A DNA stretch of 36,105 nucleotides. It comes from Flavobacteriales bacterium. Lineage in GTDB: Bacteria > Bacteroidota > Bacteroidia > Flavobacteriales_D > Crocinitomicaceae. The stretch spans positions 1 to 36,105 of the forward strand of contig CANLIL010000028.1 in NCBI GenBank assembly GCA_947491305.1, read 5' to 3'. This document shows positions 4,012 through 36,105 of the stretch, piece after piece; the stretch's first letter is position 1; each line of letters opens with the position of its first letter. Under the pieces are notes generated by a model. The model worked only from the letters and a program-made list of their open reading frames with translations, was not told where the DNA came from and searched no databases. The translations under genes and the position numbers were made by a program.

Positions 4012-4032
4012 TTATTGTAAAAATTACTATAT
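4012..4032 (+). promoter_or_regulatory. Candidate operator, copy 1 (GH3 promoter)
   Basis: Left arm TTATTGTA (4012-4019), five-base spacer, right arm TACTATAT (4025-4032), an imperfect copy of TTATTGTA-N5-TACAATAA. The 14-nt string ACTTATTGTAAAAA at 4010-4023 is identical to strings at 24674-24687 and 34465-34478. Its end is 62 nt before the GH3 start codon, exactly the spacing seen at the copy before the three-repeat protein. It overlaps a possible -33 TTG at 4015-4017. The regulator is not proven. Confidence 0.55.
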
Positions 4033-4094: not shown

Positions 4095-6383
4095 ATGAAC
4101 AAAATACACTTTTTCACTGCTTTATTTTTCTTGCAATTTTTTGTGATTTCTTCTGTATTTTCACAGGTGGATGAACAGTTAGAAGCCCGCATTCAACAAG
4201 CAATTAGTCAAATGAGTTTGAAGGAAAAAGTTGGTCAAACGTGTCAAATCACTTTAGACGCACTATTGAAAACTGACGCAACAGGAAAAGTGTTAGAACC
4301 AGCTCAATTAGATGAGGTAAAATTGCAAGAAGCCTTGGTTGATTTTCAAATTGGATCGATTTTAAATGTAAGTTCACATACGTTACAACTAAAAGAATGG
4401 CAAACGATTTTAGGTCAAATACATCAATTTTATAAAACTAAAAAAGTTAATACTCCGATTTTATATGGAGCAGATGCGATACATGGAATGAATTATACGG
4501 TTGGAGCAACCTTATTTCCGCAAGAAATTGGTTTAGCAGCAACATGGAATCCAGCATTGGCAGAACAATTTGGAAAGATTACTGCTTATGAATTACGAGC
4601 TTCAGGCATTCCATGGAATTTTTCTCCTGTAATGGATTTGGGTCGTCAGCCTTTGTGGTCGCGCTTTTTCGAAACAATGGGCGAAGATCCTTACCTTTCC
4701 TCATCTTTAGGCAAGCGAATCATTGCTGGATACCAAGGGTCGAATTTAAACAATCCTTACAGTACCGTTTCTTGTTTGAAGCATTTTGTTGGTTATAGTT
4801 TTCCATTATCTGGTCGTGATAGAACACCAGCTTGGATTCCAGAAAAATACATGCAAGAATTGTTTTTACCACCTTTTGAAGCAACGGTAAAAGCAGGCGC
4901 ACTTTCAGTGATGGTGAACAGTGGAGAAGTCAATGGAATTCCAGGTCACATCAACTATCATTTATTAACGGAAGTTTTAAAAGGAAAATGGAATTTCCAA
5001 GGATTTGCGGTTTCAGACTGGGAAGATATTTTGATGTTGGAATCAGTTCATCGCACTGCATCGAATCACAAAGAAGCCATCATACAAGCGCTGAATGCAG
5101 GCTTAGACATGAGCATGGTTCCTTTGTCGCCACAATACAAAGAGTATTGTCGTTTGCTGCTAGATGCAATGAATGAAAAACGCATTTCTGAAAATCGTTT
5201 GAATGATGCTGTTGCTCGAATTTTGCGTGTTAAAATGAAGTTAGGTTTGTATGAAAAACAAGTATTTGAAGCAAAAAATTACCCACTATTTGGAAGTATA
5301 CAACATAAAAACGCTGCAAAAGAAGCCGCTTTAGAATCCATTACTTTATTAAAAAATAATTCCATTTTACCCTTAAAAAAAGGTACTGCTGTTTTGGTTG
5401 CGGGTCCAACATCGGATAATTTAATTTACTTAAATGGTGCTTGGACGCATACTTGGCAAGGAATGGATAGTTCTTACAATACAAAAGGATGTAAAACATT
5501 GGCGCAAGCAATTCAAGCATTGAATGGTCCTGCTACGAAATTCGCTAAAGGCGCACAATTATCTTTGAAAGAAGGGTGGGAGCAGTGCGAATTAGTTGAA
5601 TTGGCAGATTACAAAAATAAATTGGCACAATGCGATGTTGTTGTTTTGTGTTTGGGTGAATTACCTGCAACAGAAAAACCTGGTGATATTCGCAGTTTGG
5701 ATTTGCCAGCTGCACAACTAGCATTGGCTGAAGCAGCATTTGCAGCAAAAAAACCTGTCGTTTTAGTATTATTAGAAGGTCGTCCAAGAATAATTCGTTC
5801 GATAGTCGATCAATCAGCGGCAATTGTTCAAGCTTATTTACCTGGTGATTACGGTGCAGAAGCCATAGCAGATATTCTTTTTGGAGCATGTAATCCGTCA
5901 GGGAAATTACCGTATTCTTATCCAAAATACAACGGAGTAATTGAACATTATGATTTGAAACGAAGCGAAGCTCGTTCTGGAAAAACCAATCAATTTGATG
6001 CCTATGATCCAGAATGGGATTTCGGATTTGGATTAAGTTATACAACGTTTGCGTATTCCAATTTAAAAATCTCTAAGAATGAATTGAAACAAAACGACAG
6101 CATTCAAGTATCCGTTTCTGTTACTAATACAGGGAAAATGGATGGGAAAGAAGTGGTTCAACTTTATTTAACGGATGACATTGCAAGTAGCACAACATTT
6201 GGAAAACGACTAAAAGGATTTGAAAAAATAGCATTGAAAGTAGGGGAGACCAAAACAGTAAATTTTGTCATCTCTGAAAAAGACCTTATGTTTGCAGACT
6301 TTACAAATAAAATGATTTCAGAAAGTGGTTCTTTCACGATCAAAATCAATGAATTAACCACACTTTTTAACTTTTCAAAATAA
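4095..6383 (+). CDS. Secreted GH3 beta-glucosidase
   Basis: Releases glucose from the non-reducing end of beta-glucosides or beta-gluco-oligosaccharides, most likely in the periplasm. The 762-residue protein has a signal peptide (1-24, ending SVFSQ), the GH3 N-terminal barrel (about 35-370, with GADAIHG, DLGRQPLWSR, ETMGEDPYL and KHFVGY), the GH3 C-terminal sandwich (about 410-620, beginning ESITLLKNNSILPLKKG) and a fibronectin-III-like tail (about 675-750, VSVTNTGKMDGKEVVQLYL). The predicted nucleophile is D308 in GFAVSDWED. No T9SS tail is present. The start fits the signal peptide. The Nudix regulator begins one base after its stop codon, so the two are probably cotranscribed. Given GH16 elsewhere in the window, short laminarin oligosaccharides are a plausible substrate, but this is inference. 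Confidence 0.92.
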   Translation: MNKIHFFTALFFLQFFVISSVFSQVDEQLEARIQQAISQMSLKEKVGQTCQITLDALLKTDATGKVLEPAQLDEVKLQEALVDFQIGSILNVSSHTLQLKEWQTILGQIHQFYKTKKVNTPILYGADAIHGMNYTVGATLFPQEIGLAATWNPALAEQFGKITAYELRASGIPWNFSPVMDLGRQPLWSRFFETMGEDPYLSSSLGKRIIAGYQGSNLNNPYSTVSCLKHFVGYSFPLSGRDRTPAWIPEKYMQELFLPPFEATVKAGALSVMVNSGEVNGIPGHINYHLLTEVLKGKWNFQGFAVSDWEDILMLESVHRTASNHKEAIIQALNAGLDMSMVPLSPQYKEYCRLLLDAMNEKRISENRLNDAVARILRVKMKLGLYEKQVFEAKNYPLFGSIQHKNAAKEAALESITLLKNNSILPLKKGTAVLVAGPTSDNLIYLNGAWTHTWQGMDSSYNTKGCKTLAQAIQALNGPATKFAKGAQLSLKEGWEQCELVELADYKNKLAQCDVVVLCLGELPATEKPGDIRSLDLPAAQLALAEAAFAAKKPVVLVLLEGRPRIIRSIVDQSAAIVQAYLPGDYGAEAIADILFGACNPSGKLPYSYPKYNGVIEHYDLKRSEARSGKTNQFDAYDPEWDFGFGLSYTTFAYSNLKISKNELKQNDSIQVSVSVTNTGKMDGKEVVQLYLTDDIASSTTFGKRLKGFEKIALKVGETKTVNFVISEKDLMFADFTNKMISESGSFTIKINELTTLFNFSK

Positions 6384-6384
6384 C

Positions 6385-7086
6385 ATGTCCTTGTATAAAA
6401 TTGAATTTAATGATTTTTTTACGTCTGCTTTTTCAGTGGATTGTGTGATTTTTGGGTACAGTGAAGGTGAAATTAAGGCCTTATTGATTCAACGTGGAAT
6501 GGAACCATTCAAGCATTTTTGGGCCATTCCGGGGGATTTGGTCTATCCAAACGAAGATTTACCCGATGCTGCGAGTAGAATTTTACACGAATTAACAGGT
6601 TTGTCAAATGTTGAAATGCACCAATCGCACACGTTTGGAAATCCAGGTCGACATCCTCAAGGGCGTGTAATAACGATTGCGTATTTTGCATTGATTCGCA
6701 TTACTGATTTTGAAATCAAAGCCTCTTCTTGGGCAGAGAAAGCTCAGTGGGTTTCGTTGAATGAAATTCCAGCATTGGCGTTTGACCATTCCACAATTTT
6801 GAGTTCAACGTATGATTTGTTGAAACAAAAATTAACACACGAACCCATTTGTTTTGAGTTATTGCCGGTACGTTTCACATTGAATGAATTGCAACAATTG
6901 TATGAATATGCATTCAATACAATTATGGATAAAGCGAATTTTAGGAAAAAAATTAAACCCTTGCATTTAGCGCCTTTGAATGAACGTCAAATCAATGTAA
7001 AACACCGTCCTGCAAAATTATTTAAGTTCGACCAACCAGCTTATTTGACGGCTGTTCAAGAAGATAATTACCAGTTTAAAATGTAG
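6385..7086 (+). CDS. Nudix-related transcriptional regulator (NrtR/AraR-like)
   Basis: A 233-residue protein with an N-terminal Nudix fold (about 12-150) and a C-terminal winged helix (about 160-220, including FTLNELQQLYEYAF and the typical HRPAKLFKFD ending). This architecture is that of the NrtR family, which in Bacteroidota includes sugar-sensing members such as the arabinose regulator AraR. The Nudix box (residues 50-73, GDLVYPNEDLP...RILHELTGL) is degenerate: the RE and EE positions read R-I and E-L, so hydrolase activity is unlikely and the domain probably senses a ligand. It follows the GH3 gene by one base, which suggests control of glucan genes. It is the only clear DNA-binding regulator in the window, hence the candidate for the TTATTGTA-N5-TACAATAA sites. 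The effector is unknown. Confidence 0.88.
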   Translation: MSLYKIEFNDFFTSAFSVDCVIFGYSEGEIKALLIQRGMEPFKHFWAIPGDLVYPNEDLPDAASRILHELTGLSNVEMHQSHTFGNPGRHPQGRVITIAYFALIRITDFEIKASSWAEKAQWVSLNEIPALAFDHSTILSSTYDLLKQKLTHEPICFELLPVRFTLNELQQLYEYAFNTIMDKANFRKKIKPLHLAPLNERQINVKHRPAKLFKFDQPAYLTAVQEDNYQFKM

Positions 7087-13293: not shown

Positions 13294-13303
13294 TTTCAAT
13301 TAA

Positions 13304-16433: not shown

Positions 16434-16458
16434 ATGACACTAAGAAAAAATTTATGTG

Positions 16459-18840: not shown

Positions 18841-18841
18841 C

Positions 18842-20692: not shown

Positions 20693-20703
20693 GGTGTTTT
20701 AAT

Positions 20704-22125: not shown

Positions 22126-22143
22126 ACTTTTCTAATCAAAAGC

Positions 22144-22164: not shown

Positions 22165-22335
22165 GCCGTGTGAAAAGTATATAATTTTAAGGAAATATGA
22201 AATAAAAAATAAATATTGTGTTTTGAAATAATTCCAACTGAATGTCAATTTTAAACGTTTCTATAATTAATTTCGACTTTTTCAAAAGAAAAAATTACAT
22301 TTATCATCTAAATATGAAATTAGTATAAAGAAATT

Positions 22336-24597: not shown

Positions 24598-24616
24598 ATT
24601 CATATTTTTATTTAAG

Positions 24617-24652
24617 TCCCTCATCTTCAATTTGAAATGAGGGATTTTTTTT
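24617..24652 (+). terminator. Rho-independent terminator after the CotH/LTD gene
   Basis: TCCCTCAT (24617-24624) pairs with ATGAGGGA (24637-24644), with further inner pairing TTCA/TGAA, followed by eight T (24645-24652). Confidence 0.85.
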
Positions 24653-24675
24653 GAACTTTACTTTTTTTAACATAC

Positions 24676-24696
24676 TTATTGTAAAAAATACCATAA
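24676..24696 (+). promoter_or_regulatory. Candidate operator, copy 2 (three-repeat protein promoter)
   Basis: TTATTGTA (24676-24683), AAAAA, TACCATAA (24689-24696): one mismatch from a perfect inverted repeat. It shares the 14-nt ACTTATTGTAAAAA string with the GH3 and permease/glycosidase sites. It ends 4 nt upstream of a likely -33 element and 62 nt before the start codon, a position usual for an activator or for a repressor blocking polymerase entry. Confidence 0.55.
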
Positions 24697-24700
24697 TTTC

Positions 24701-24731
24701 TTTGTTTGTTTCATTTTATTATTTAATTTCG
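24701..24731 (+). promoter_or_regulatory. Candidate promoter of the three-repeat gene
   Basis: TTTG (24701-24704), a 19-nt spacer and TAATTTCG (24724-24731, one mismatch to TANNTTTG). The -7 element ends 27 nt before ATG 24759, which supports that start over an upstream in-frame TTG. Confidence 0.5.
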
Positions 24732-24758
24732 ACACGTAAACAATTAAAATTTAACTCT

Positions 24759-26081
24759 ATGAATACAAAAAATTTACTTAAATTTAGAAAGGCATTTCTC
24801 CTAATAATTGGGTTATGTCTTTTTGCAGTTTCTTATGCACAAAACTTGGTTATTACAACAGAAGTTTGTGCGCCTGCAACATCAGTTCGTTTGACAGGGC
24901 CTTGGTGGAATTGGGATCCAACTGGTGGACCAGTTGCTACAAGTAATGGAAACGGAACATGGACATTTACATTGTCTCCAGCTCCAACTGCTGATATGGA
25001 ATACCTATTAGTTGTGGATGGCGTTCAAGAAAATTTAATTTCTGCAATGCAAAATGGAGGAACATGTGCTCCAGTTACAGATTATGCAAATTATGCAAAT
25101 CGTAAATGGTTAACAACTCAACCTTTAACAATTACGAATACATATGGACAATGTGGTCCATGTAGTAATCAAGGATTATTAATCACAGTTGCAGTTTGTG
25201 ACACAACTCCATCTCCAACATCTGTTAGAATGACAGGTCCTTTCTGGAATTGGGATCCAAATGCTGGTCCAATTGCAACTAGTAATGGTAATGGAACATG
25301 GACTTTTAACTTATTTCCTGTACCTACAGCAGATATGGAGTATTTAATTAGTGTAGACGGAGTTCAAGAAAACTTAATTTCGGATATGCAAAATGGAGGA
25401 ACATGTGCTCCTGTTACAGATTATTTCAATTATGCCAATAGAAAATGGATAGTTGGTTCTGGAAATGTTAATATAAATTACAATCGTTGTGTTCCATGTG
25501 AATATCCTGATTTAATTATTACTACTGAAGTTTGTGATTCTGCAACTCAAGTGAATTTAACTGGCCCGATTTGGCAATGGAACCCAGCGTTTGGGCCTCA
25601 AGCAGTTAATAATGGGAATGGGACATGGACTTTTACTATTTCTCCTGCTCCAACAGATACATTAGAATACTTGTTAGTTAAAAATGGTGTAATGGAAAAT
25701 CTAGTTACAGATATGATAAACGGTGGTGGATGCGCTCCATTAACTGACTATTCAACGTATGCAAATCGTCGTTGGATCATCGGACAAGGGGCTGTTTCAA
25801 ACACATATGATCGTTGTAGTCCTTGTGCTTTGAGTATTGAAGAAAATAATCAAATGGATGTTTCAATTTATCCAAATCCAACAAATTCAATTTTTAAATT
25901 AACAAGCACTAAAGCAATTGAAAAAATAGAAATTTATTCTTTGGTAGGTGAATTAGTTTATTCACTTGAAACGAATAAATTTGTTGTTGATCTTGATATT
26001 TCTTTATTAGAAGCTGGAATTTACACGATTAGTGTAAATGGGTCAAATTCAAATCAAAACGCTAGAATTATCAAAAATTAA
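24759..26081 (+). CDS. Secreted protein with three Cys-containing repeats and T9SS tail
   Basis: A 440-residue protein with a signal peptide (1-28, ending VSYAQ), three tandem repeats of about 110 residues starting at residues 30, 140 and 252, and a T9SS sorting domain (about 362-440, VSIYPNPTNSIFKLTST ... GIYTISVNG). Each repeat shows TGP-x-W-x-W-x-P, NGNGTWTF, a D/T-x-x-EYL strand, ENL, a GG-x-CAP(V/L)TDY-x-x-YANR segment and an (R/Q)C-x-PC end. Each contains four cysteines, so two disulfides per repeat are likely. The aromatic-rich TGPWWNWDP motif suggests a carbohydrate-binding surface similar in idea to starch-binding modules, but I cannot name a family. It is followed by a terminator and the GH16 gene, so it may bind the GH16 substrate. 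Confidence 0.85.
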   Translation: MNTKNLLKFRKAFLLIIGLCLFAVSYAQNLVITTEVCAPATSVRLTGPWWNWDPTGGPVATSNGNGTWTFTLSPAPTADMEYLLVVDGVQENLISAMQNGGTCAPVTDYANYANRKWLTTQPLTITNTYGQCGPCSNQGLLITVAVCDTTPSPTSVRMTGPFWNWDPNAGPIATSNGNGTWTFNLFPVPTADMEYLISVDGVQENLISDMQNGGTCAPVTDYFNYANRKWIVGSGNVNINYNRCVPCEYPDLIITTEVCDSATQVNLTGPIWQWNPAFGPQAVNNGNGTWTFTISPAPTDTLEYLLVKNGVMENLVTDMINGGGCAPLTDYSTYANRRWIIGQGAVSNTYDRCSPCALSIEENNQMDVSIYPNPTNSIFKLTSTKAIEKIEIYSLVGELVYSLETNKFVVDLDISLLEAGIYTISVNGSNSNQNARIIKN

Positions 26082-26137: not shown

Positions 26138-27145
26138 ATGAGAAAAATTATAGTTATTTTAGGATTACTTTCGATCAGTTATCATTCTTCAGCCCAATGG
26201 GAAATGATTTGGAACGATGAATTTAACAATTCTATTTTAGACAATTCTAAATGGATTAATGATGTTGGCGGAAATGGCTGGGGTAACAATGAAGCTCAGT
26301 TTTATACTGCAGGAAGTGCAAATTTAACTATGAATAATGGTTTTGCGACAATCACTGCAAAAGCGCAGCAATTAGGATCTAATCAATACACTTCTGCAAA
26401 AATAATCTCAAAGAATCTTTTTGATGTAAAATATGGAAAAATTGAAGGTCGCATGAAATGCCCAATGGGTAAAGGTTTATGGCCTGCTTTTTGGATGTTG
26501 GGTTCAAATATTGATACTGTCAGTTGGCCACAATGTGGTGAAATTGATATCATGGAGCACATAAATAATGAACCTAAAATTCATGGTACAGCTCATTGGA
26601 ATAATGTAGGGCACCAATATTTGGGAGGAATAATTAATACAGATCCAACATTATTTCATACATACTCTATTGTTTGGGATGCTAATTCTATCAAATGGTA
26701 TATGGATGATCAATTGTACTATATTTTAAATATTTCAAATAATACGAACGGTACAGAAGAATTCCACAAGAAATTTTATTTAATATTAAATTTAGCTGTG
26801 GGAGGAAATTGGCCAGGATATCCTGATGCTTCAACCGTGTTTCCAGCTGAGTTTGTAATAGATTATATTCGTGTCTACAAGCCTGCTGTAGCTGCAACTG
26901 ATGAGTTACTTGCATCTTCAATAGAATTGATTCCTAATCCTGCAGATCAAACAATACAATTGATTTCTAATTTTTCGAACGAATCGTTCTCAAATGGTCA
27001 ACTTTGGTCAATGGAAGGTCGTTTTGTTCAATCTATTGATTTTATAGCTTCTTTGATTGATATCCAACACTTGGAAAAGGGTACTTATTTTATTTCGTTC
27101 GAAGTAAACGGAAAACAAGTTGTGAAACAATTCTTAAAGCAGTAA
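26138..27145 (+). CDS. Secreted GH16 endo-beta-glucanase (laminarinase type) with T9SS tail
   Basis: Endo-hydrolase of beta-1,3- or mixed beta-1,3/1,4-glucan acting outside the cell. The 335-residue protein has a signal peptide (1-19, ending HSSAQ). Its GH16 domain (about 20-252) contains WNDEFNN, WGNNEAQFY, GRMKCPMGKGLWPAFWMLG and the catalytic signature GEIDIMEH with E135, D137 and E140. WPGYPDASTVFPAEFVIDYIRVYK is the usual end of the domain. Residues about 262-335 form a T9SS sorting domain (IELIPNPADQTIQLIS ... GTYFISFEVNGKQVVK). The ExDxxE form and the surrounding residues are those of bacterial laminarinases rather than agarases or kappa-carrageenases. It lies downstream of the three-repeat gene and converges with the CBM9-like gene with one base between stop codons. 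Confidence 0.92.
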   Translation: MRKIIVILGLLSISYHSSAQWEMIWNDEFNNSILDNSKWINDVGGNGWGNNEAQFYTAGSANLTMNNGFATITAKAQQLGSNQYTSAKIISKNLFDVKYGKIEGRMKCPMGKGLWPAFWMLGSNIDTVSWPQCGEIDIMEHINNEPKIHGTAHWNNVGHQYLGGIINTDPTLFHTYSIVWDANSIKWYMDDQLYYILNISNNTNGTEEFHKKFYLILNLAVGGNWPGYPDASTVFPAEFVIDYIRVYKPAVAATDELLASSIELIPNPADQTIQLISNFSNESFSNGQLWSMEGRFVQSIDFIASLIDIQHLEKGTYFISFEVNGKQVVKQFLKQ

Positions 27146-27146: not shown

Positions 27147-28448
27147 TTAATCTAGCTTTAATTGTCCCCACAAACTAGGATTGGTATTGAATCCATCAGC
27201 ACTTGGATTGTTCCAACGGTCTTGATGGGTTCTTTTTCCTTTCTCGTCTCCTTGATCAATACCCATTTCAAAACCATAAATAGCTGAGGTATTCAATTCT
27301 TTACCACAAATTTGTTGAATAGGCAATTGAATTTCAACGAAACTACCTTCTGAAGTTGGAGTAATTTTAACTGTTCCATTTTCAATAAGTGTATTTGTTT
27401 TCCAATTCCAAATAATTGGGTTTTCATTCATGCGAATTCCGATTTGAACATCACTTAATAAATAAAATTTACGTTTTGGATTAGCTGAAGGATTTGAACC
27501 AAAAGCTATTTCTAGTGCGTCGCCATCCCAAATATCTTTCCCTTGTTTTGTATTGATTAAAGGGGATGCATCGTTGATGTTGAATGCTAAATAAAGGTTG
27601 TTTGCATCGTATTGTATTGCAACTTGGTGTTTTTTATTAATGGTTGAAAATGTGGATTCTTTCCATTCTTTTGGATCTAGAACACCATCAATTATTAAAT
27701 TCGATTTCTTTTTAGTAGCAACTAACTCATTTCTTAATTTTCCTGCATAAGGAACAATTTCAATCGCATCAACTTCAATGGTACCTGATGCTTCAAATTG
27801 AATGATGAGTTGTTTCACATTACTACCATCAAATTTTTCATCTTCAAAATTGAATAATTGTAACGGAATAGTGATTTTTGTCCACTCTTTTGTAATCACA
27901 CCATTTTCAATAAACCCAGCAGAAAAACCAATCCAAATTTGTTGGTTGCTATGGTCCTCAATGCCTAAAGCCAAGGGTAAATTGTAAATATTGACAGAAG
28001 TTGACCGCACATATAGTTGAATAGCAGCGGTATCGTAAATAGCACTTAAATTTTTACCGGTCCAACCGTCCCAGCCAATTCCCATTCCAATCCAAGAACA
28101 TCCGCCAGCAACTTTATCCCATTGAAGTGTAAGATAAGAAGATCCATTTTTTGGGTGTTCAAATCCTTGTTTCATCGCAATACATGCATTGTCATTTGTT
28201 TTCCAAATTTCATCAGAAATGCCATCTGTATACAAATCTAGCGCAGTGAAGTCACGAATGCTTCTTTTTGTTTTTCGTTTATCTTCATCGTATAACCCTT
28301 GTTTTTTAAAACCAGTAACACGTTGTTTACCGAAAACTGTAACCGTGTCTACTTGAATGGTATCGCGCGCACTGATTACAGGTTGAGCGCTGGCAACTTG
28401 AGCAATAAAAAGCAATCCAAAAACTGAAAACGTAAGAAAGAATTTCAT
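27147..28448 (-). CDS. Exported carbohydrate-binding protein with C-terminal CBM9-like domain
   Basis: A 433-residue protein with a signal peptide (1-22, ending QVASAQ). Residues about 60-235 form a beta-sandwich with DLYTDGISDEIWKT, WIGMGIGWDGWTGKNL and a closing VKQLIIQFEASGTIEVDAIEIVPY, similar to CBM11/30-type or ExoP-like galactose-binding folds. Residues about 250-433 are CBM9-like (LIIDGVLDPKEWKES, YDANNLYLAFNINDASP, IWDGDALEIAFG, FVEIQLPI). No catalytic motif or T9SS tail is visible. It is the last gene of the five-gene run, 5 nt after the lipoprotein gene. A role in holding glycan in the periplasm or at the outer membrane is inferred from the domains and neighbours. Confidence 0.8.
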   Translation of the reverse strand: MKFFLTFSVFGLLFIAQVASAQPVISARDTIQVDTVTVFGKQRVTGFKKQGLYDEDKRKTKRSIRDFTALDLYTDGISDEIWKTNDNACIAMKQGFEHPKNGSSYLTLQWDKVAGGCSWIGMGIGWDGWTGKNLSAIYDTAAIQLYVRSTSVNIYNLPLALGIEDHSNQQIWIGFSAGFIENGVITKEWTKITIPLQLFNFEDEKFDGSNVKQLIIQFEASGTIEVDAIEIVPYAGKLRNELVATKKKSNLIIDGVLDPKEWKESTFSTINKKHQVAIQYDANNLYLAFNINDASPLINTKQGKDIWDGDALEIAFGSNPSANPKRKFYLLSDVQIGIRMNENPIIWNWKTNTLIENGTVKITPTSEGSFVEIQLPIQQICGKELNTSAIYGFEMGIDQGDEKGKRTHQDRWNNPSADGFNTNPSLWGQLKLD

Positions 28449-28453
28449 GTTTA

Positions 28454-29461
28454 TTATGGGTTTAATGGTCCGTTTTCAGTGAAAATAATGTAGTCTAATT
28501 TTGTTTTTGCAGGACCTGAAGATGGATTTGCCAAATGCAACATATTAATCTGTTTAATCTTGTTTGGGTTGTGTTGCTGGTTACCATTTGGAGTAGATGG
28601 AGCGCCATTAACTAATGTAGCTAAATCACTGTATTTGATAGAAACTAATTTCCAACCAACCCAATCAACTTTTATTTCCACATCATATTGATCATCACTT
28701 GTTGCGGTAAAGGTACCGTCACCATTTTCATCTTCCTGAAATTGAAAGAGAACAATCGAATTGATTAATCCAGGCTCACCATAAACCATTGCATTGAAAT
28801 AAACATTGTTTCCATTTGCATTTAATGGATAGGTTACGAATCCATCCGCTGAGGCTTTGAAATTGATTAAACCAATCAACCAATCCCAATTGACAGTTCC
28901 TGCCATGTTTAAATAATCGTCTCCTTGAGGCGCAAAATTATCTGTTTTGATTTGAAAATCCATGTTAGCTCCTGATTGTATGAACGAACCCCAACCACTG
29001 TTAAACCCATCTTCAAAATCTGCAATAACATAGCCAGCATTTGCTTTGATGCCTTTAATTTTAACTTGATCAACCAATGTATCCGATTCGCCTTCAAACG
29101 TAAGTTGAATGTCACATAGTTCATTTCTAAACATTGGAAGCTGTGACGTTGAACCAATCCAAAGCGCATCATTCATTGTAATTGTTTTACTTGTACCAGT
29201 TAATTCTTTTACAGCGCCTGATATTTGACCAGTAATGGTAATTTTCCAGTTACTTGTTTTCGACAATCCACAGGTAAAATACACGGTTTCTCCAGCTGAA
29301 AAATCAACTGAATCACGGCTAACGTAAAAAGGATCTAAAATAGAAAAACCGCCATTCAATTCTTCCAACGAAGGCCCATCAATTTTTGGAGCATCTTTTC
29401 TACAAGACGAAATTGAAAATCCCAAAAGGGTCAATGCAACTATTAGTTTAAATGTTTTCAT
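28454..29461 (-). CDS. Putative glycan-binding lipoprotein
   Basis: A 335-residue protein whose signal peptide ends in a lipobox with the acylated cysteine at residue 20 (GFSISSC-RKD). Residues about 45-135 form an Ig/PKD-like domain. Residues about 143-335, from VIADFEDGFNSGWGSF to TKLDYIIF, have the jelly-roll pattern of carbohydrate-binding domains (FEDG opening, WKLVSIKYSDL, closing LDYIIF). In position and architecture it resembles the surface glycan-binding proteins that accompany SusCD, but it lies beside two barrel proteins that are not SusC. The gene starts 3 nt after the stop codon of the barrel gene upstream. No named family is recognised. Confidence 0.78.
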   Translation of the reverse strand: MKTFKLIVALTLLGFSISSCRKDAPKIDGPSLEELNGGFSILDPFYVSRDSVDFSAGETVYFTCGLSKTSNWKITITGQISGAVKELTGTSKTITMNDALWIGSTSQLPMFRNELCDIQLTFEGESDTLVDQVKIKGIKANAGYVIADFEDGFNSGWGSFIQSGANMDFQIKTDNFAPQGDDYLNMAGTVNWDWLIGLINFKASADGFVTYPLNANGNNVYFNAMVYGEPGLINSIVLFQFQEDENGDGTFTATSDDQYDVEIKVDWVGWKLVSIKYSDLATLVNGAPSTPNGNQQHNPNKIKQINMLHLANPSSGPAKTKLDYIIFTENGPLNP

Positions 29462-29464
29462 AAG

Positions 29465-31186
29465 TTAAAATTTCATAGAGTAAACAATTAATAACTGATT
29501 TAAATGATAAGGATTTAATCCATTTGAGTTGATTGTCGAATAATCATACAAACCTGCTAAATAGATTTTATCACTAAAGTTAAAACGAATTCCACCTGAA
29601 TAGATCAATTCGTTCACAGCTATTGAAACAGGTGTGAAATTGTAAATTTCTCCGTTAGGCTTGCGTTCTGGTAGTATTTCATTTCCAGTAGCTTGCATAG
29701 AATTAATGCCTGCTAATAAATGAAATTGTGGGATAAATTCGAAGTCGATACCTGCGTTAAATTGGGTAGATGTTAAATTGATTTGTTCAAATGCTAAATC
29801 ACTTTTTCGTTCGGTTTGCTGTTGATTAAATCCTGAAGTTACAACCAGTGGCATTTTAAACTTAAATGTTTTACTTACATCCCATTTTACTTGAGCTGTC
29901 AATACTGTAAAGTCTTTTAATTTAGTTGTTCCTTGTCCACGAATTTCAGTTAAAAACTGTCCTTCTAATCTTACTTCCAAACGTTTTTTCGGATCTAAAT
30001 AGCTCAATTGTGAAGTCATTCCGTTTCGGTTAAACGTTGCTCTACCATAAGGCGTTGCATTATTAAACACAGGATTGTATGCCATGATGCGATCAGAAAT
30101 CCCAGCATTGTACAAATTACTGTTTTGGTACACATCAAAACTTGAAATTGGTCGAACAATTTGTTCGTTGGTATAGTTTTGATACAAAGTATTTAACTTG
30201 TTGAAGTCAACACGTTTTGATTGAGCTCCAATACTTCTAAAATCATCACCGACATTTAAATAAGAAAGGGCTAAACTTACGTTTGATTTTTTGTGATCAA
30301 TCTTCAATGTAGCATCCACAAAATAATCACTTAAATTATTGTCATCGATTTGTGTTTTAAAAATTTTAGAAGTCCCAGTTTCTCCTTTGATACCAACTTT
30401 CCAATTTTTGTCGTACAAGGTAGATTCAAATGTCAACGTTGACACATTATTGCGGTAAGCATTGCTATCTGTCGCAGTTCCTAAAACATCAAACGCACTT
30501 ACATAATTCAACCCAATTGTAGCGTATTTACTTTGTGTGACAATCACATTTCCACCTCCGTATAAACGCTCTAGTAGAGAAGTAGTAATAGCAGAATTCA
30601 TTCGTGTAATAAATCCATTTACTTTCACTTCTTGTACATATTTTTTAAATGTTAAACCAAAATCCATCGCAGCTCCTTGTTGACGCCACGTGTTGTTATT
30701 GGTATAAAACGATTCGTAATTAACGATGTCTTGCTTGATTTTTTGAATACCGTTCAGTTCTATTAATTGGTCAGGATTGTGATTGTAAAAAGTGTACGGA
30801 GTTAATTTGTAATCTATGTTTCCGAGCTGGTAACGAACGGCATTGGCAATTACACCTCTAACGTACAATTGACGAACATCAAAAGTGACACCAGCGCCCC
30901 AAAATCCTCCAAAAGCATTTTTAATACGGATCATTCCTAAAATTTCGGTTGAACTATTTGGGTTAATTTTAAATCCTAAATCGATTAATGCGTAACCATC
31001 TGAACGTTTTCCTGGTGTTACAGTATCCACAACATTATCTTGTGTTAAACTAAAACCAGACATTTCAGAACGAGCAGCACCAACAAATTCTACTTTTTTA
31101 GTAGCTACTTGCGCCGTTACATTCCACTGAATTGTCAGTAAAAGTGATACGATGAATACTTGTTTTAAATTTTTAAATTGATTCAT
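29465..31186 (-). CDS. Outer-membrane beta-barrel protein B
   Basis: No named family recognised. The 573-residue protein starts at ATG 31186 (MNQFKNLKQVFIVSLLLTIQ), where a proper signal peptide (1-26, ending WNVTAQ) begins; an in-frame start further upstream at 31237 would overlap the previous gene. The rest is a series of amphipathic strands with aromatic girdles and glycine turns, for example FGGFWGAGVTFDVRQLYVRGV and GGIRFNFSDKIYLAGLYDY, ending in LLIVYSMKF with a terminal phenylalanine. This is the pattern of a porin-like barrel of the outer membrane. No plug domain or TonB box is seen, so it is not SusC. It begins 10 nt after the stop codon of barrel protein A. Confidence 0.75.
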   Translation of the reverse strand: MNQFKNLKQVFIVSLLLTIQWNVTAQVATKKVEFVGAARSEMSGFSLTQDNVVDTVTPGKRSDGYALIDLGFKINPNSSTEILGMIRIKNAFGGFWGAGVTFDVRQLYVRGVIANAVRYQLGNIDYKLTPYTFYNHNPDQLIELNGIQKIKQDIVNYESFYTNNNTWRQQGAAMDFGLTFKKYVQEVKVNGFITRMNSAITTSLLERLYGGGNVIVTQSKYATIGLNYVSAFDVLGTATDSNAYRNNVSTLTFESTLYDKNWKVGIKGETGTSKIFKTQIDDNNLSDYFVDATLKIDHKKSNVSLALSYLNVGDDFRSIGAQSKRVDFNKLNTLYQNYTNEQIVRPISSFDVYQNSNLYNAGISDRIMAYNPVFNNATPYGRATFNRNGMTSQLSYLDPKKRLEVRLEGQFLTEIRGQGTTKLKDFTVLTAQVKWDVSKTFKFKMPLVVTSGFNQQQTERKSDLAFEQINLTSTQFNAGIDFEFIPQFHLLAGINSMQATGNEILPERKPNGEIYNFTPVSIAVNELIYSGGIRFNFSDKIYLAGLYDYSTINSNGLNPYHLNQLLIVYSMKF

Positions 31187-31196
31187 TGTTCTAAAT

Positions 31197-33056
31197 TTAG
31201 AAATATATTTTAAGTTCAACTGTGGTTTCCATACCACTGTATTTGTCTAAATGGAAATTTGCATCGCTGTTGTTCATCCAACGATTTCTAACATACAAAC
31301 CGGTGTTTTTAGCAATGTACCAATCAAAGCCTGTTGAGTAACTCCAGCCAGTTTGGTTTTTCGCTTTTCCAGTAATAGCATCTAAACGAGTTTGGTCATT
31401 CCCAATAATGCGGTCATATCCGAAGTAATTTGTCCAGGTAAAGTTTTTCGTAATGCTCAAATAAAATTCCAATTGGTGGTAGTAGGTTTGAAAATAAGCA
31501 TTGGTAGAATATACTGGTGTGACAGAAAAACTTTTTTGAACAGAACTAAACGAACCTAAATAGTAGATAAACAATTCTCGATTGAATAATTTAGTCTTGT
31601 ATTTCGCATTGATTTCAAATGCATTGAAACTTTTTGCTACAGCTGAATCACTGATTTCAACTGTTTCATATACACCTCTGTAAATTTTATTTAATTGACC
31701 GTAAGGTCCAACATTCGCTGGGAATCCCCATCTCCAAAAACGCGATAAAGCTAAATTATTAACAGGATGAGAAAAAGCAATTTTACGGGTCAATGCATCT
31801 ATTTCTTGAGAAGCATTGTAGCCAATACTTATTTTTAATTTCTTGAAGTTGACTTCTGTATTCAGCTCAAGTCCTCTTCTGTTATTCGTCATCTGACCGA
31901 TTTGAAGCATTGAGCTAGCAAATGGAATAAGTACAGTTTGAGTTCCTGTTTCGTTGTTGTTGAATGCATCGTTGTACTCAACTACCGAAGTATTCCAAAA
32001 AACACCATTATTATTGATGACCAACGGACTAATTTGGAAGTAATGAAATTCAATTGGAATTTTGGTCCATTTTTGTGGTAGTTTTAATTTCAAATTAATT
32101 GCTTCCCCCCATTTTGATAAGCTTTGTGGACTTTTATACCTTCCTAATCCTACTTCTCCTTTGAAATTGAATCCAAACTTCTCTACATCAAATTCTACGG
32201 TGTGAACTTCAAACTTGATGGTACGAACAGCTAAACTATCTGTATACGTTTGTGAAGTAAAGGTATTTAAACTGACAAAGTTATTTCCAAATGATTTTTT
32301 CAATTTACCACCTGTTGACGCATTGGGAACATTCATGGATCCACCATTAAATTGCGTTTTTCCATACATAAATGCAAATGAAAATCCAGCAGGTAATTTA
32401 TCTCCATCTACGATAATTCCTTGAAATGCTTGTTGTCCCCAACGCACATCTTGAGACAGAGCACCATCGTTAAAAAACTTTTCGTACCGTTGATTAACGG
32501 AAGCAGTATTTGGATCCCATGGATTGCGCTCAAAAATGCTAAAACGGTTATATCCTGTATTCGTTCCAAACGTTAACGGGCTCAATGAATACCAGTTGAT
32601 TCCACCTGTTCGCACATTGAATGATCCGTATTTTGTAGAATGACTCCCCATTAAATTGACACCTAAATTCAAGCCTTTGACATAATCTGTCTCACTTCCA
32701 GTTAAAGGAGTCCATAAGTATAAATCCGTTGCAAACGTTGTGCGCGCACTTGGACGACCGCTTATTTGTAACATCAACTGTGGAATTTGGCTATCGTCGC
32801 CAATGAAGATTTTTTTTGCAGGAGCAGCACTGAATTCAGGATATTGAATTTTCATGTCTGTATAATTTCCAATAAAACGGTAGTAACCGCTTACTGTAAT
32901 TTTATCCATTGTTTCGGCTAGAATTTTCGGAAAAAGACCACTTTGATTGTTCAAACTTGTTGAGTCTTTCAAACGAATTTCTTGTGCAAATCCAACTTGT
33001 TGCATGCCAAATAAAGCAGCAAATAGGAGTATGATATTTTTGATGTGATTACTCAT
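31197..33056 (-). CDS. Outer-membrane beta-barrel protein A
   Basis: No named family recognised. The 619-residue protein has a signal peptide (1-25, ending QQVGFAQ) and then many strand-like segments (MDKITVSGYYRFIGNYTDMKI, IPQLMLQISGRPSARTTFATDLYLW, GLYVRNRWMNNSD), ending in TTVELKIYF with a terminal phenylalanine. This is a large barrel without plug or TonB box. ATG 33056 overlaps the end of the glycosidase gene in the string ATGAGTAA, which points to translational coupling; a TTG two codons earlier is less likely. No clear similarity to barrel protein B was seen beyond general barrel composition. It probably forms a channel or scaffold for glycan at the outer membrane. Confidence 0.75.
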   Translation of the reverse strand: MSNHIKNIILLFAALFGMQQVGFAQEIRLKDSTSLNNQSGLFPKILAETMDKITVSGYYRFIGNYTDMKIQYPEFSAAPAKKIFIGDDSQIPQLMLQISGRPSARTTFATDLYLWTPLTGSETDYVKGLNLGVNLMGSHSTKYGSFNVRTGGINWYSLSPLTFGTNTGYNRFSIFERNPWDPNTASVNQRYEKFFNDGALSQDVRWGQQAFQGIIVDGDKLPAGFSFAFMYGKTQFNGGSMNVPNASTGGKLKKSFGNNFVSLNTFTSQTYTDSLAVRTIKFEVHTVEFDVEKFGFNFKGEVGLGRYKSPQSLSKWGEAINLKLKLPQKWTKIPIEFHYFQISPLVINNNGVFWNTSVVEYNDAFNNNETGTQTVLIPFASSMLQIGQMTNNRRGLELNTEVNFKKLKISIGYNASQEIDALTRKIAFSHPVNNLALSRFWRWGFPANVGPYGQLNKIYRGVYETVEISDSAVAKSFNAFEINAKYKTKLFNRELFIYYLGSFSSVQKSFSVTPVYSTNAYFQTYYHQLEFYLSITKNFTWTNYFGYDRIIGNDQTRLDAITGKAKNQTGWSYSTGFDWYIAKNTGLYVRNRWMNNSDANFHLDKYSGMETTVELKIYF

Positions 33057-34389
33057 TTTCAAATGAACTTAATGTTGTCTTTTTAAAGCGAACCATTGGT
33101 TGATCTTCAGCAGCTTCTGATGGTTGCACGTAAAATGGGAAATTACAATAGGCAATTTTTTCACCGTCACTAACGGTTAAGAACAAACGGTAACGACCTT
33201 CTTTTTTCGGTGCTTTTAACACACAAGTGGCAGCTTGTTTGGAACGAATTTGCCCACTGATTAATGGTGGTTTAGATTCCACATCTCCACCCGTTTTTAA
33301 ATCTTCACTTTCAGGATACAATTCCCAAGAGTAGTTTAATTTATCATTTTCCTGGTCTTTTGCGAATGCTTTCACTTCAACGAGTTGTCCGCTTTTGAAA
33401 ATTGAATTTAAATTGGGTTTAAGATTATCAACACGAAAAGAATCGATGCTTGGCGCACAATTTTTAGGTGCTTTGTTGGTCCAACAATATTCCATGGCAT
33501 CGTATACTTCTGTTGCAGCGCCATTTTCAGAAAAAATCCCGTACCAAGTACTTGTGTATTCTTGTTTTTGTCCCCATAAAAAAGCAAAAGAGCCAATGCA
33601 TTGTTTGCTATCTTTTGCAATGTATTGTGCATAACGTTCTTTGTAACTTGTTGCTTTTTCTTTACTCGTTTGTTCAATGGATGAACCCCACATTGTTTTT
33701 GGTGATTCCCAATGACCGTTTGGTCCCCATTCAGTTATCATGTAAGGTCCTTGAAAATTACCTTCAGTTAATACGTTTTTCACGTTACCAATATCACCGT
33801 ATGTATTGATTCCATAGATATCAATTGCAGTGAGTTCATTCATCACATGCGTTAATTTTTCAGCATTTGTTCCAGCTGTAACCGTTGCAACAGGATGATT
33901 TTTATCTTCCTCTTTGACCATTTTAGCGATGTCGTTCACTGCTTTCCAAACTTTTCGATTAGAATAATCTAATTCGTATTCATTCCCAACACACCATATT
34001 AATAGTGCTGGATGATTTTTAAATTTTTTAATCTGAGTTCTGAAACCTTCAAGTTGTGCCTTGATTTTAGCTTCGTCATTGTAATCAAAACCATGGCGTT
34101 CATGCTGAACCCACATACCTAACATCACTTTGATTCCTAATTTTTGTGCTTCATCCAATACCGTTTGAGCATTTTCTAAACCCCACGTTCGGATTGTATT
34201 TCCACCAATGGCAACCACTTCTTTCAAGTATTTTTCACCACCCGCCCCACGAATGTAATAGGGCTCGTTGTTGACCAAAAGTGTCCATTGTTGCTCTTTT
34301 TTTACAATTGTAACTACATTGTTTTGCGCATAGGCAAGCACACTTGTTAAAAATAATAGGCAACTTGTTTTTAGAAACTTTAATAGCAT
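33049..34389 (-). CDS. Secreted clan-A (TIM-barrel) glycoside hydrolase with C-terminal Ig-like domain
   Basis: A 446-residue protein with a signal peptide (1-21, ending SVLAYAQ) starting at ATG 34389; upstream in-frame codons to 34431 precede the signal and are not used. Residues about 35-310 form a TIM barrel of the GH2/GH5 type: GGNTIRTWG, VMLGMWVQHERHG, the acid/base E137 in WCVGNEYEL, GINTYGD and the nucleophile E220 in MITEWGP. Residues about 325-440 (APSIDSFRVDN ... GRYRLFLTVSDG) are a PKD/Ig-like domain. The exact family cannot be read; GH158-like beta-1,3-glucanase or a GH2/GH5-related beta-glucosidase are candidates. It is the first gene of the five-gene run and shares its upstream region with the permease gene. 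Confidence 0.85.
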   Translation of the reverse strand: MLLKFLKTSCLLFLTSVLAYAQNNVVTIVKKEQQWTLLVNNEPYYIRGAGGEKYLKEVVAIGGNTIRTWGLENAQTVLDEAQKLGIKVMLGMWVQHERHGFDYNDEAKIKAQLEGFRTQIKKFKNHPALLIWCVGNEYELDYSNRKVWKAVNDIAKMVKEEDKNHPVATVTAGTNAEKLTHVMNELTAIDIYGINTYGDIGNVKNVLTEGNFQGPYMITEWGPNGHWESPKTMWGSSIEQTSKEKATSYKERYAQYIAKDSKQCIGSFAFLWGQKQEYTSTWYGIFSENGAATEVYDAMEYCWTNKAPKNCAPSIDSFRVDNLKPNLNSIFKSGQLVEVKAFAKDQENDKLNYSWELYPESEDLKTGGDVESKPPLISGQIRSKQAATCVLKAPKKEGRYRLFLTVSDGEKIAYCNFPFYVQPSEAAEDQPMVRFKKTTLSSFENE

Positions 34390-34671
34390 GTGGTTGAAAT
34401 TTATGTAACAAGGTACAAAAAAATGCAGCACCTTATTTATTTCTTTTAATTTTCGTTTTCACAAACTTATTGTAAAAAATACAATAAATACCAAAAAATC
34501 AAAAATATTTTTTAATCAATTAATAATCAAGATAGTACAATTATTATTTTTTTAAAAAACAAGATCAAAATAAACATGATTAAAAAAAATATGTATAAAA
34601 AAACTTGTATTCAAGTAAAACTATTTTACTTTTACCCATCAAGAAATTAAAAAAACGAAAATCAAAAACGA
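34390..34671. promoter_or_regulatory. Divergent AT-rich control region between the glycosidase operon and the permease
   Basis: 282 bases with no coding potential and long A/T runs. It holds the best copy of the 21-bp inverted repeat (34467-34487). A minus-strand TTTG (34465-34462) directly abuts that site, and TTTTTTTG (34423-34416) is a possible -7 for the glycosidase, although their spacing is not standard. For the permease no good -33/-7 pair was found; TATTTTTT (34505-34512) is a weak -7. The permease leader would be long (about 150 nt). Confidence 0.55.
34467..34487. promoter_or_regulatory. Candidate operator, copy 3 (perfect inverted repeat)
   Basis: TTATTGTA (34467-34474), AAAAA, TACAATAA (34480-34487): perfect 8-base arms around a 5-base spacer. 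The ACTTATTGTAAAAA string (34465-34478) is identical to those before the GH3 gene and the three-repeat gene. It is 77 nt from the glycosidase start codon and 184 nt from the permease start codon, so one site could serve both directions. Confidence 0.6.
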
Positions 34672-36105
34672 ATGTCAACAGCAACATTTACTAAAACGAA
34701 CTATGGTTCATTAGCAACCATCACTACTGTATTTTTCTTTTGGGGTTTTGTAGCCGCATCGAATGATATTTTAATTCCAGTTTTCAAAGAGCATTTGCAT
34801 TTAGAGCAATGGCAATCTCAGTTAATTAGTTTTGCGTTTTACATAGCTTATACTGTAGGTTCGATTCTTTATTATATGATTTCTTACTTCACAAAAAAAG
34901 ACATCATCAACAGAATTGGGTACAAAAATGGAGTTTCCTTAGGTTTGTTAATTTCAGCAGCGGGAACTTTGTTATTTATTCCAGCAGCCAACTATGAATC
35001 GTTTTATACCATGATTACTGGTTTGTTTATCGTTGGAATTGGTTTTTCGTTGCAGCAAACTGCTGCGAATCCTTTAGCGATTAATTTAGGAGATCCAGCA
35101 AAAGGATCACAACGATTGAGTTTAGCTGGTGGTATTAATAATTTAGGAACTACCATTGGACCTGTTTTATTAGGTTTAGCCATTTTTGGTGGAGTCAATA
35201 ACGACGCGAAAAATGTGAGTATAGACAGTATTAAAATCCCTTATTTGTTATTAGGCTTAGCTTTTGTTTTGGTTGCGATATTATTCAAATTTTCATCTAT
35301 TCCTAACAAACCAGCGATCATTGAAGATGAGGTTGTTGAAGATAAAAGTGCTAAAAAATCAGCTTTAGCCTATCCACAATTGATTTTAGGAATGATTGCG
35401 ATCTTTTTATACGTTGGTGTAGAAGTTTCTACCGCTGGAAATTTATCCGATTATTTGAAACAAAATGTTGGTATCGAAACGCGAAAAGCGGCTCCATTCA
35501 TTTCCTTGTTTTGGGCGAGTTTAATGATTGGCCGATGGACATCTGCCGCTGGAGCATTTAATATGAAAAAATCAACACAAACTCTTTTATCTGTTTTGTT
35601 ACCATTTGTTGCTTTTGGAATATTTATGGGAATTAATTCATTGGTTGGAAATGATGTTTCCATGTTTAATTATTACCCTTTAGTAATTGTTGTAATGATT
35701 TTGGGGGACTTTATGAGTAAAGGAAATCCAGCGAAACAATTATTGATTTTCTCTTTACTTGGCATTCTTTCTTTGTTTATTGGAATGAACACATCCGGAA
35801 TGTTTTCCGTTTATGCCTTTATTAGCGTTGGTTTGTTTTGTAGCACACTTTGGCCATGTATTTTTACGTTGTCGATTAGTGGTTTAGGAAAATTCACCAA
35901 CCAAGGAAGTGGATTCTTAATCATGATGATCATGGGTGGAGGAATCGTAAGTTTGGTACAAGGACGCTTAGCAGGAAATGATTTATTAGGAATTCAAGCA
36001 AGTTACATCGTAGGCGTGATTTGTTTTGCATACTTGGCATTTTTCGCAATCTACGTTCGCAACTTATTGAAAAAGCAAGGTGTAGAATTAGAAGCGCCAG
36101 CTGCT
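34672..36105 (+). CDS. FHS-family sugar permease (FucP/glucose-galactose type), 3' end outside window
   Basis: Inner-membrane proton-linked monosaccharide importer of the major facilitator superfamily. The frame is open for 478 codons from ATG 34672 to the right edge; the sequence has reached a hydrophilic C-terminal tail (KKQGVELEAPAA), so only a few residues are probably missing. About twelve hydrophobic segments are visible. NDILIP at 31-36 matches the conserved FucP segment with the substrate-binding aspartate (D32 here). QQTAANP at 128-134 corresponds to the FucP segment ETAANP, with glutamine in place of glutamate. The likely substrate is glucose released by the surrounding hydrolases. 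It is transcribed divergently from the clan-A glycosidase operon and shares its operator region. Confidence 0.9.
   Translation, partial: MSTATFTKTNYGSLATITTVFFFWGFVAASNDILIPVFKEHLHLEQWQSQLISFAFYIAYTVGSILYYMISYFTKKDIINRIGYKNGVSLGLLISAAGTLLFIPAANYESFYTMITGLFIVGIGFSLQQTAANPLAINLGDPAKGSQRLSLAGGINNLGTTIGPVLLGLAIFGGVNNDAKNVSIDSIKIPYLLLGLAFVLVAILFKFSSIPNKPAIIEDEVVEDKSAKKSALAYPQLILGMIAIFLYVGVEVSTAGNLSDYLKQNVGIETRKAAPFISLFWASLMIGRWTSAAGAFNMKKSTQTLLSVLLPFVAFGIFMGINSLVGNDVSMFNYYPLVIVVMILGDFMSKGNPAKQLLIFSLLGILSLFIGMNTSGMFSVYAFISVGLFCSTLWPCIFTLSISGLGKFTNQGSGFLIMMIMGGGIVSLVQGRLAGNDLLGIQASYIVGVICFAYLAFFAIYVRNLLKKQGVELEAPAA

Follow-up and report, generated by a model that had tools for sequence, protein, structure and literature searches.

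A SusCD-independent two-barrel operon with a GH158 enzyme in a Crocinitomicaceae genome, a probable beta-1,3-glucan utilization locus

The capture and import of sugars from cellulose without the SusC/SusD pair (SusCD) in Cytophaga-type bacteria has been named as an unknown (PMC6247017). The closest described system is chu_1276-chu_1280, an atypical polysaccharide utilization locus (PUL) studied for cellulose in Cytophaga hutchinsonii; its genes encode an endoglucanase, a pair of outer-membrane proteins and a pair of bimodular beta-sandwich proteins, with no SusD among them. A part in cellulose use has been demonstrated for four of the five genes, the exception being that of CHU_1278, a protein yet to be characterized (PMC12016534). 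The endoglucanase, CHU_1280, belongs to glycoside hydrolase (GH) family 9 (PMC6247017). In the open-licence literature searched, cellulose is the only substrate for which this atypical PUL is described, and the species are limited to C. hutchinsonii, C. aurantiaca and S. myxococcoides. Here, we describe a five-gene operon at positions 27147-34389 (minus strand) of contig CANLIL010000028.1 (C28), which forms in its entirety the 36,105-base stretch analyzed (hereafter, the window) and belongs to a near-complete 2.5-Mb genome of the Crocinitomicaceae, a family in which one strain has been reported to lack PULs (PMC12313589).

The operon encodes a GH158 glycosidase, two outer-membrane barrels (A and B), a lipoprotein and a protein with carbohydrate-binding modules (CBM30/CBM9), in that order. 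We consider it likely, with a probability of roughly 0.8, to be a two-barrel PUL that works without SusCD, belongs to the chu_1276-1280 kind and serves the use of a beta-1,3-glucan such as laminarin. An earlier note on this DNA had proposed PUL-like glycan handling at the outer membrane without SusCD, and the enzyme family, the conserved gene order and a palindrome held in common with genes for a GH16 laminarinase, a GH3 enzyme and a glucose permease all agree with that proposal. Its suggestion that the system may be undescribed is only partly right, as the general make-up is known for cellulose in chu_1276-chu_1280 (PMC12016534). What seems new is the GH158/beta-1,3-glucan form, together with its distribution and regulon: neither the form nor its distribution was seen described in the open-licence literature searched, where the GH18/chitin form was not sought by name.

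Gene content of the operon, its enzyme and its barrels

The operon comprises the following features, in order of transcription:

33049..34389, minus strand: GH158 endo-beta-1,3-glucanase-type enzyme, identified by PDB profile matches and catalytic residues; type I signal peptide by eye, probably periplasmic
31197..33056 (TTG start possible at 33062), minus strand: outer-membrane barrel A; AlphaFold2 barrel, no Pfam family
29465..31186, minus strand: outer-membrane barrel B; AlphaFold2 barrel, no Pfam family
28454..29461, minus strand: lipoprotein, surface glycan-binding candidate; lipobox Cys20 followed by RKD, C-terminal half weakly CBM11-like
27147..28448, minus strand: CBM30-like and CBM9 protein; CBM9_1 at E 1.1e-14, CBM30 at E 3.7e-4 (short of the cut-off)

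The packing on one strand that the earlier note had given, with gaps of 3-10 nt and one overlap, is exact by the coordinates of the open reading frames (ORFs): the gaps measure 10 nt between barrels A and B, 3 nt between barrel B and the lipoprotein, and 5 nt between the lipoprotein and the CBM protein, while the enzyme and barrel A overlap by 8 nt with the likeliest ATG starts (14 nt with the TTG at 33062). None of the four non-enzyme proteins matched an NCBIfam model, and a tRNA search of the window found none.

The first gene, proposed earlier as a clan-A glycosidase, matches the Pfam GH2 TIM-barrel model. On its sequence matches, it is a GH158 enzyme that has kept its catalytic residues, and GH158 is a family of endo-beta-1,3-glucanases (PMC7157763). 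When a profile of nine orthologues was searched against the PDB, 9oro_A ("Glycoside hydrolase family 158") and 6pal_A were matched at E 6.5e-125 and 7.3e-99, respectively, and the remaining matches, among the best 60 of 110, had E 9e-10 or worse. The window protein alone matched the same two entries at E 1.8e-84 and 1.8e-69, aligned across nearly its whole length, with the match spanning both the TIM barrel and the Ig-like domain. Asn136, Glu137 and Glu220 are invariant in the nine-sequence alignment (A5), align to 6pal and carry the same numbers as the essential residues of BuGH158, in which loss of the equivalents of N136, E137 or E220 abolished activity (PMC7157763). A search of the window's genome for the cellulase family PF00150 found nothing at E <= 0.001.

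Structure prediction of the two barrels, built with 58 barrel-A and 54 barrel-B orthologues, gave a beta-barrel for each: barrel B (modeled without its first 8 residues) at a mean predicted local distance difference test score (pLDDT) of 90.5 with 22 strand segments, and barrel A, less certain, at a mean of 80.5 with 27. Both are thus predicted to be beta-barrels without a plug. The non-SusC character claimed for them is borne out by Pfam, which finds no Plug, TonB_dep_Rec or CarboxypepD_reg in barrel A or B, nor, at E <= 0.01, in any of the 58 and 54 orthologues; as a positive control, the same kind of search recovered Plug, TonB_dep_Rec, CarboxypepD_reg and SusD from the window's own SusC (13304-16357) and SusD (11707-13299), a pair that lies about 11 kb from the operon. 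Likewise, no SusD match was found in the lipoprotein or its family, in agreement with the claimed absence of SusD from the operon.

The porin families OprB, OprD, OprP and LamB are represented in Pfam. Neither these nor similar known porin families claimed any of the 58 and 54 orthologues, which, searched singly at E <= 0.01, gave only sporadic weak matches (MipA in one of 58 for barrel A; DUF2490 in three, OMP_b-brl in two and OmpA_membrane in one of 54 for barrel B), so that the refuting outcome named in the earlier note, a match of the barrels to a known porin family with an unrelated function, did not arise in these searches. Profile searches of both barrels against PDB sequences returned nothing at E <= 10. 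By fold comparison with VIA-align, barrel A matched pilus ushers, the SusC-type chain of BT1762-1763, siderophore receptors and porins at Z 13-16, and barrel B matched ushers, OprD-type porins and LamB at Z 14-17; Foldseek gave target-normalized TM-scores of up to 0.48 and 0.49 among the matches listed. Usher, TonB-dependent, OprD-type and LamB-type barrels thus tie, and the fold searches neither name nor exclude any single porin family.

These fold matches bear on the possibility that barrel A is a disguised TonB-dependent transporter, its plug lost or replaced, that is still energized by TonB/ExbBD. The second-ranked VIA-align match of barrel A is 5t3r_D, from the BT1762-1763 SusCD crystal (Z 14.9, with 383 residues superposed at 3.8 A, the chain covering 211-1016 only), several siderophore receptors rank closely behind it, and CHU_1276 likewise matched such transporters (PMC12016534). 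Against this, the barrel A model has no plug or N-terminal domain (residues 24-42 fall below pLDDT 50 and the first strand starts at residue 54), no Plug match occurs in its 58 orthologues, and ushers and porins score equally; the resemblance to transporters may therefore reflect barrel size only. We regard a disguised transporter of this type as unlikely. As a separate observation, the two barrels show no detectable kinship to each other (hhalign probability 2%), yet both contain an N-R-x-G stretch (NNRRG at about 389-401 in A, FNRNG at about 371-385 in B) despite their unrelated profiles.

The two remaining proteins are candidates for surface glycan binding. In the lipoprotein, Cys20 is invariant in a 46-sequence alignment (A8). 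A lipobox-like motif, sought with a simple pattern, is present in 93 of 112 family members, 70 of which have a basic-then-acidic stretch after the Cys; these counts, like the 42 of 93 given below for the fourth cassette protein, include some loci twice. All five ORFs of the earlier note are present as it stated, and for the glycan-binding jelly roll that it assigned to the lipoprotein the support is a weak match to CBM11 (E 0.0019, short of the cut-off); CBM_11 is found at E <= 0.01 in ten of 46 family members, and the family profile yields nine PDB matches, all at E 0.18 or worse. The CBM9-like character of the last protein is upheld by its CBM9_1 match, with CBM9_1 present in 19 and CBM30 in 17 of the 29 members of the family of this fourth cassette protein. 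By eye, it has a type I signal peptide in the window, and it is a lipoprotein in many relatives (lipobox-like in 42 of 93). Across alignments A4, A9 and A11, the C-terminal half of the fourth gene is swapped: close relatives have a CBM9, others have a second CBM30-like copy, and many (e.g., L153 and L161) have one domain only, of about 215 aa.

Conservation of the cassette and exchange of its enzyme

The gene order proves to be conserved, so that the second refuting outcome named in the earlier note did not arise either. Eighty named contigs were taken as the best 80 of 186 barrel-A relatives, a choice biased to the query's own type, with ORFs called by a simple script. The order barrel A, barrel B, lipoprotein is kept in 69 of the 80 (median gap 1 nt), and the other 11 end early, at most 1,864 nt after barrel A; a CBM-type gene is also present at 67 loci. 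This conservation across genomes is far above chance expectation, and chance clustering of the operon genes was considered and rejected. A GH158 gene lies within 8 kb of the cassette in 77 of the 80, the other three (L123, L132 and L196) starting at or inside barrel A; within the same distance and by the probes used, GH3 is found at 46 and GH16 at 17 loci. The two nearest contigs are metagenome-assembled genomes (MAGs) of Crocinitomicaceae, with barrel A 97-99% identical to that of the window. Regions fetched by handle partly overlap these contigs (L023 with L118, for example) and were not added to the 80.

Barrel A was also found in 16 of 60 relatives (the window's genome included), in 49 of 396 sampled Bacteroidia (about one in eight), in 13 of 396 genomes from another order of the class, and in three of 203 genomes sampled across the phylum, one being the window's own and one lying outside the class Bacteroidia. 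Regions from the 15 other relatives carry barrel A, barrel B, the lipoprotein and the CBM-type gene consecutively, some ending at a contig edge. In 48 regions drawn from the class-sample matches (five barrel-A genomes, G214, G273, G302, G307 and G428, being left out), the trio is present in 44, three stop at contig ends, and L094 has barrel A, barrel B and a CBM-type ORF with no recognized lipoprotein. The genome outside the class has GH158, the lipoprotein and barrel B together as well. When the window's pair was used as a probe across the window, L023-L037 and L069-L196, the only SusC/SusD-like ORFs recovered were that pair itself and, over 8 kb away from its cassette, a single SusD-like ORF of L141.

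A few loci stand out. At L226, in the genome outside the class (G967), the GH158 lies within an 813-aa ORF near the lipoprotein and barrels, perhaps a fusion or a mis-set start. L154 (PBNL01000046.1), labeled a euryarchaeal MAG, holds a full bacterial cassette that falls inside Crocinitomicaceae in the barrel-A tree and is probably mis-binned; L121, labeled Chitinophaga pinensis, also falls within Crocinitomicaceae.

The neighbors of the cassettes were clustered and cluster representatives scanned for families. GH158 accompanies most cassettes, and GH3 and GH16 accompany many. In one family (f24), cassettes stand beside a GH9 with a cellulase N-domain (L071-L074), beside a GH18 (L069, L115 and L116) or beside GH16 and GH3 (L108-L112). 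A tree of 76 barrel-A sequences of at least 500 aa, picked from the fetched loci and built by a quick method (with L114 on a long branch), largely tracks enzyme and substrate class: the four GH9-type barrels form one clade with support 100, the three GH18-type barrels share a clade with L070 (which has no probed enzyme within 8 kb), and all enzyme labels together need ten changes on the tree compared to 22.2 in shuffles, none of 200 of which was as low. The GH18 label alone (two changes for three members, as low in 16 of 500 shuffles) is less telling, and the GH16/GH3 label arises at several places. That the barrels largely travel with the substrate class is what would be expected of transporters or binders.

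The cassettes beside a GH18 chitinase (L069:11752-13912, L115:2902-5082 and L116) represent a candidate chitin version; they come with two lipoprotein genes and, at L069 and L115, with a glucosamine-6-phosphate-isomerase/PIG-L fusion. L069 also has a sodium symporter. Four f24 genomes carry three separate cassettes apiece (G070: L069, L070, L074; G211: L071, L076, L111; G238: L072, L108, L110; G149: L073, L109, L112), and the enzymes near them differ (GH9, GH18, GH16/GH3 or GH97).

A shared palindrome and the surrounding genes

Outside the operon, the window contains the following features of relevance:

4013..4031, no strand: palindrome, 1 mismatch, before GH3-NrtR
4095..6383, plus strand: GH3 beta-glucosidase-type enzyme; best NCBIfam model an exo-beta-1,3/1,6-glucosidase, far short of the cut-off
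6385..7086, plus strand: NrtR-family regulator, candidate regulator of the regulon; Pfam NrtR_WHD, NUDIX and AraR_C
24651..26081 (likely ATG 24759), plus strand: secreted protein encoded upstream of GH16; type IX secretion system (T9SS) tail, CBM48/CBM56-like by weak matches
24677..24695, no strand: palindrome, 1 mismatch, before the CBM/GH16 pair
26138..27145, plus strand: GH16 endo-1,3-beta-glucanase with a T9SS sorting tail; Pfam GH16 and Por_Secre_tail; convergent with the operon
34468..34486, no strand: palindrome, 0 mismatches, between the divergent GH158 operon and permease
34672..36105 (cut by the contig end), plus strand: major facilitator superfamily glucose/galactose transporter, gluP subfamily; TIGR01272 at 203.8 bits against a cut-off of 202.55

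The palindrome TATTGTA-N5-TACAATA, defined on the window itself, has exactly three sites in the 36 kb at up to two mismatches, one before each of three operons, and 60 dinucleotide shuffles produced no site at up to one mismatch. Among 72 upstream regions of GH158 genes, 33 have a site at up to three mismatches, compared to 172 of 1,440 single-letter shuffles. In 17 relatives, picked mostly for having a site, those sites that deviate at one position or none are all intergenic, a term that here allows up to 150 nt of depth in a long ORF. Almost every one of them stands before genes of the kinds seen in the window; one in L129 precedes a 1,164-aa ORF of no assigned kind. The GH158 operon with its permease, the CBM/GH16 pair and GH3/NrtR probably constitute one beta-1,3-glucan regulon. 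The nearest solved structures of the GH16 are laminarinases, the best being the endo-1,3-beta-glucanase 4crq (E 1.3e-71); the gluP match of the permease lies barely above the curated cut-off; and the NrtR-family assignment is based on the presence of both the Nudix domain and the NrtR winged helix. In nine of 12 related loci examined, orthologues of the GH3 (54-63% identical) and of the regulator (62-74% identical) are present.

In relatives (for example, L122, L125, L137 and L142), GH3, NrtR, the CBM protein and GH16 adjoin the cassette. The window keeps this GH3-NrtR-CBM-GH16 order and orientation, but split by 17.5 kb (7087-24650); since GH3-NrtR and CBM-GH16 are neighbors in relatives, the intervening stretch is likely an insertion or rearrangement inside a beta-glucan locus. 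It holds a PIF1-type helicase, a HemN-like radical-SAM gene, a starch PUL (complete SusC/SusD, GH13 and GH31) and two adjacent CotH kinase-like genes on opposite strands (20704-22125 and 22336-24597), one with a lamin-tail domain and a T9SS sorting tail. At other loci (L034-L037, L094-L098, L100, L102 and L104-L107), the surroundings of the cassette include a sensor-regulator of about 960 aa, of the Reg_prop/LuxR type (GerE), and yielded no NrtR gene.

The earlier note had offered, as an alternative, that the system exports or assembles a beta-glucan of the cell's own making, and AlgE and usher barrels are indeed among the fold neighbors. No glycosyltransferase occurs among the 20 window ORFs scanned, however, and what shares the palindrome is a set of hydrolases with a regulator and an importer, a combination that points to uptake rather than export. 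We therefore disfavor export as very improbable.

A further alternative is that the barrels are not sugar carriers but scaffold, adhesion or secretion parts that hold lipoproteins or enzymes, with uptake through another channel. Pilus ushers as well as porins are among the fold matches, and loss of CHU_1279 abolishes growth on cellulose even though binding-deficient variants still work, from which its authors infer a structural role (PMC12016534). Conversely, low glucose supports only poor growth of the chu_1276 and chu_1279 mutants (PMC12016534), and CHU_1277 is described as acting in cellooligosaccharide assimilation; together, the growth defect and the assimilation role speak for transport. 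The palindrome common to the operon and the inner-membrane glucose permease also counts against a non-transport role, which we consider unlikely.

Under the preferred reading of a beta-1,3-glucan PUL, the T9SS-exported GH16 and its CBM partner would cut glucan outside the cell; the lipoprotein and the CBM30/CBM9 protein would hold the fragments at the surface; and the oligosaccharides would pass the outer membrane via plugless barrel A, barrel B or both. Cleavage would be completed in the periplasm by GH158 and GH3, and the glucose taken in by the GluP-type permease, with the NrtR-family protein controlling the three operons via TATTGTA-N5-TACAATA until product accumulates. Together, the GH16, CBM protein, lipoprotein, barrels, GH158, GH3 and GluP would take beta-1,3-glucan all the way to glucose with no need of SusCD.

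Comparison with known systems

The link to the cellulose system runs through L071-L074, which have barrel A, barrel B, the lipoprotein, a protein of 380-381 aa and a GH9 in the published chu_1276-1280 order. Against profiles of the window's families, they score 394-405 bits for barrel A, 425-477 for barrel B and 178-199 for the lipoprotein. Their fourth protein has Tyr/Phe/Phe at 89-90/92-93/180-181, where CHU_1279 (375 aa) has W89, F92 and F180, and Tyr/Phe at 255-257/258-260, where CHU_1279 has Y253 and F256. Because the barrels and lipoprotein of these loci are homologous to those of the window and their layout and residues correspond to CHU, homology between the window cassette and CHU_1276-1280 is likely on these sequence comparisons, by a chain whose last link is indirect. 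C. hutchinsonii was not among the best 80 of 186 barrel-A contig relatives, nor was the organism found when its own proteins (PDB 6an9 and 6gbn; PMC8776046, PMC7765604) were used as probes: the best matches of its PPK2 (6an9) were 65% in 396 Bacteroidia and 67% in 129 genomes of one order, and that of its SAHase (6gbn) was 84% among 396 genomes of that order.

Several points weigh against the reading. The indirect link just described is one; the residue fingerprint of CHU_1279, passed by all four L071-L074 proteins and by none of 172 other ORFs of 340-420 aa, was framed after the sequences had been seen, with tolerances set after inspection. In addition, those four proteins are close kin (58-84% identical), the W89 position is a Tyr, the Phe answering F343 lies at +94 rather than +90 from the Tyr that answers Y253, and there is no clear homology between the fourth gene of the GH9 type and that of the GH158 type (hhalign probability 15-20%). 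As for the regulon, the motif was derived from the window, it is not enriched there at up to three mismatches (eight sites versus 5.3 expected; 16 of 100 shuffles had as many), and 39 of 72 GH158 upstream regions have no site at that threshold. Finally, barrel A is patchy, occurring in 15 of 59 other relatives and 49 of 396 Bacteroidia.

Some of these points would also fit a layout that arose independently, by analogy rather than homology to chu_1276-1280: the comparison to the CHU proteins is by layout and published residues, and the fourth gene is not clearly common to the GH9 and GH158 types. Since L071-L074, which agree with CHU in layout and with CHU_1279 at most of the residues compared, have barrels and a lipoprotein clearly homologous to the window's, we judge independent origin to be a slim prospect.

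Beyond this locus, we lean, with less assurance, towards a second general route of polysaccharide uptake in Bacteroidota: a modular cassette of two plugless barrels and a surface lipoprotein, lacking SusCD, in which the enzyme is exchanged per glycan (GH158 or GH16/GH3 for beta-1,3-glucan, GH9 for cellulose and GH18 for chitin). On the evidence of the operon, the cellulose cluster would be a single branch within a broad family whose enzymes can be exchanged. If so, PUL predictors keyed to SusCD would miss two-barrel cassettes, and surveys that require susC/susD would be blind to them; the Crocinitomicaceae strain mentioned above is cited as PUL-less from the published statement alone (PMC12313589). 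Laminarin is a soluble, easy substrate on which the cassette barrels could be tested, and the regulon offers a clear palindrome.

Among individual components, the window enzyme resembles BuGH158 (6pal) and GH158(Pro) (9oro) in its near full-length match and its catalytic N/E and E, and differs in its operon context with two barrels. AraR (BT0354) of Bacteroides is an NrtR-family sugar regulator that acts on carbohydrate genes (PMC4666351), as the window's candidate regulator probably does; the two differ in regulon, and the likeness is one of family. The 1,3GUL of Bacteroides uniformis, a canonical SusCD PUL, also combines GH16, GH158 and GH3 with an extra surface glycan-binding protein (PMC7157763), whereas the window operon has two plugless barrels in place of the TonB-dependent SusC and SusD, and no hybrid two-component regulator was seen for the window system.

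The nearest counterpart is chu_1276-1280. Both clusters combine an adjacent pair of outer-membrane proteins with one GH and two proteins of bimodular beta-sandwich build, all in one direction and, in the published description, without SusD (PMC12016534), and the predicted barrel of CHU_1276, like barrel A, matches TonB-dependent transporters by fold (PMC12016534). In terms of that definition, the window has two adjacent barrels, surface glycan-binding candidates and a GH, with no SusCD in the cluster. The two differ in position and regulation: the GH stands at the front of the window operon (it lies behind in L100, L102, L104-L107 and L114), and the window has an NrtR-type regulator and a palindrome, whereas an ECF (extracytoplasmic function) sigma factor is named for chu_1276 (PMC12016534). 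The window's fourth protein has a CBM9 domain, and the taxa lie far outside Cytophaga/Sporocytophaga. Above all, the window has a GH158 where the chu cluster has a GH9, so its substrate is probably beta-1,3-glucan rather than cellulose.

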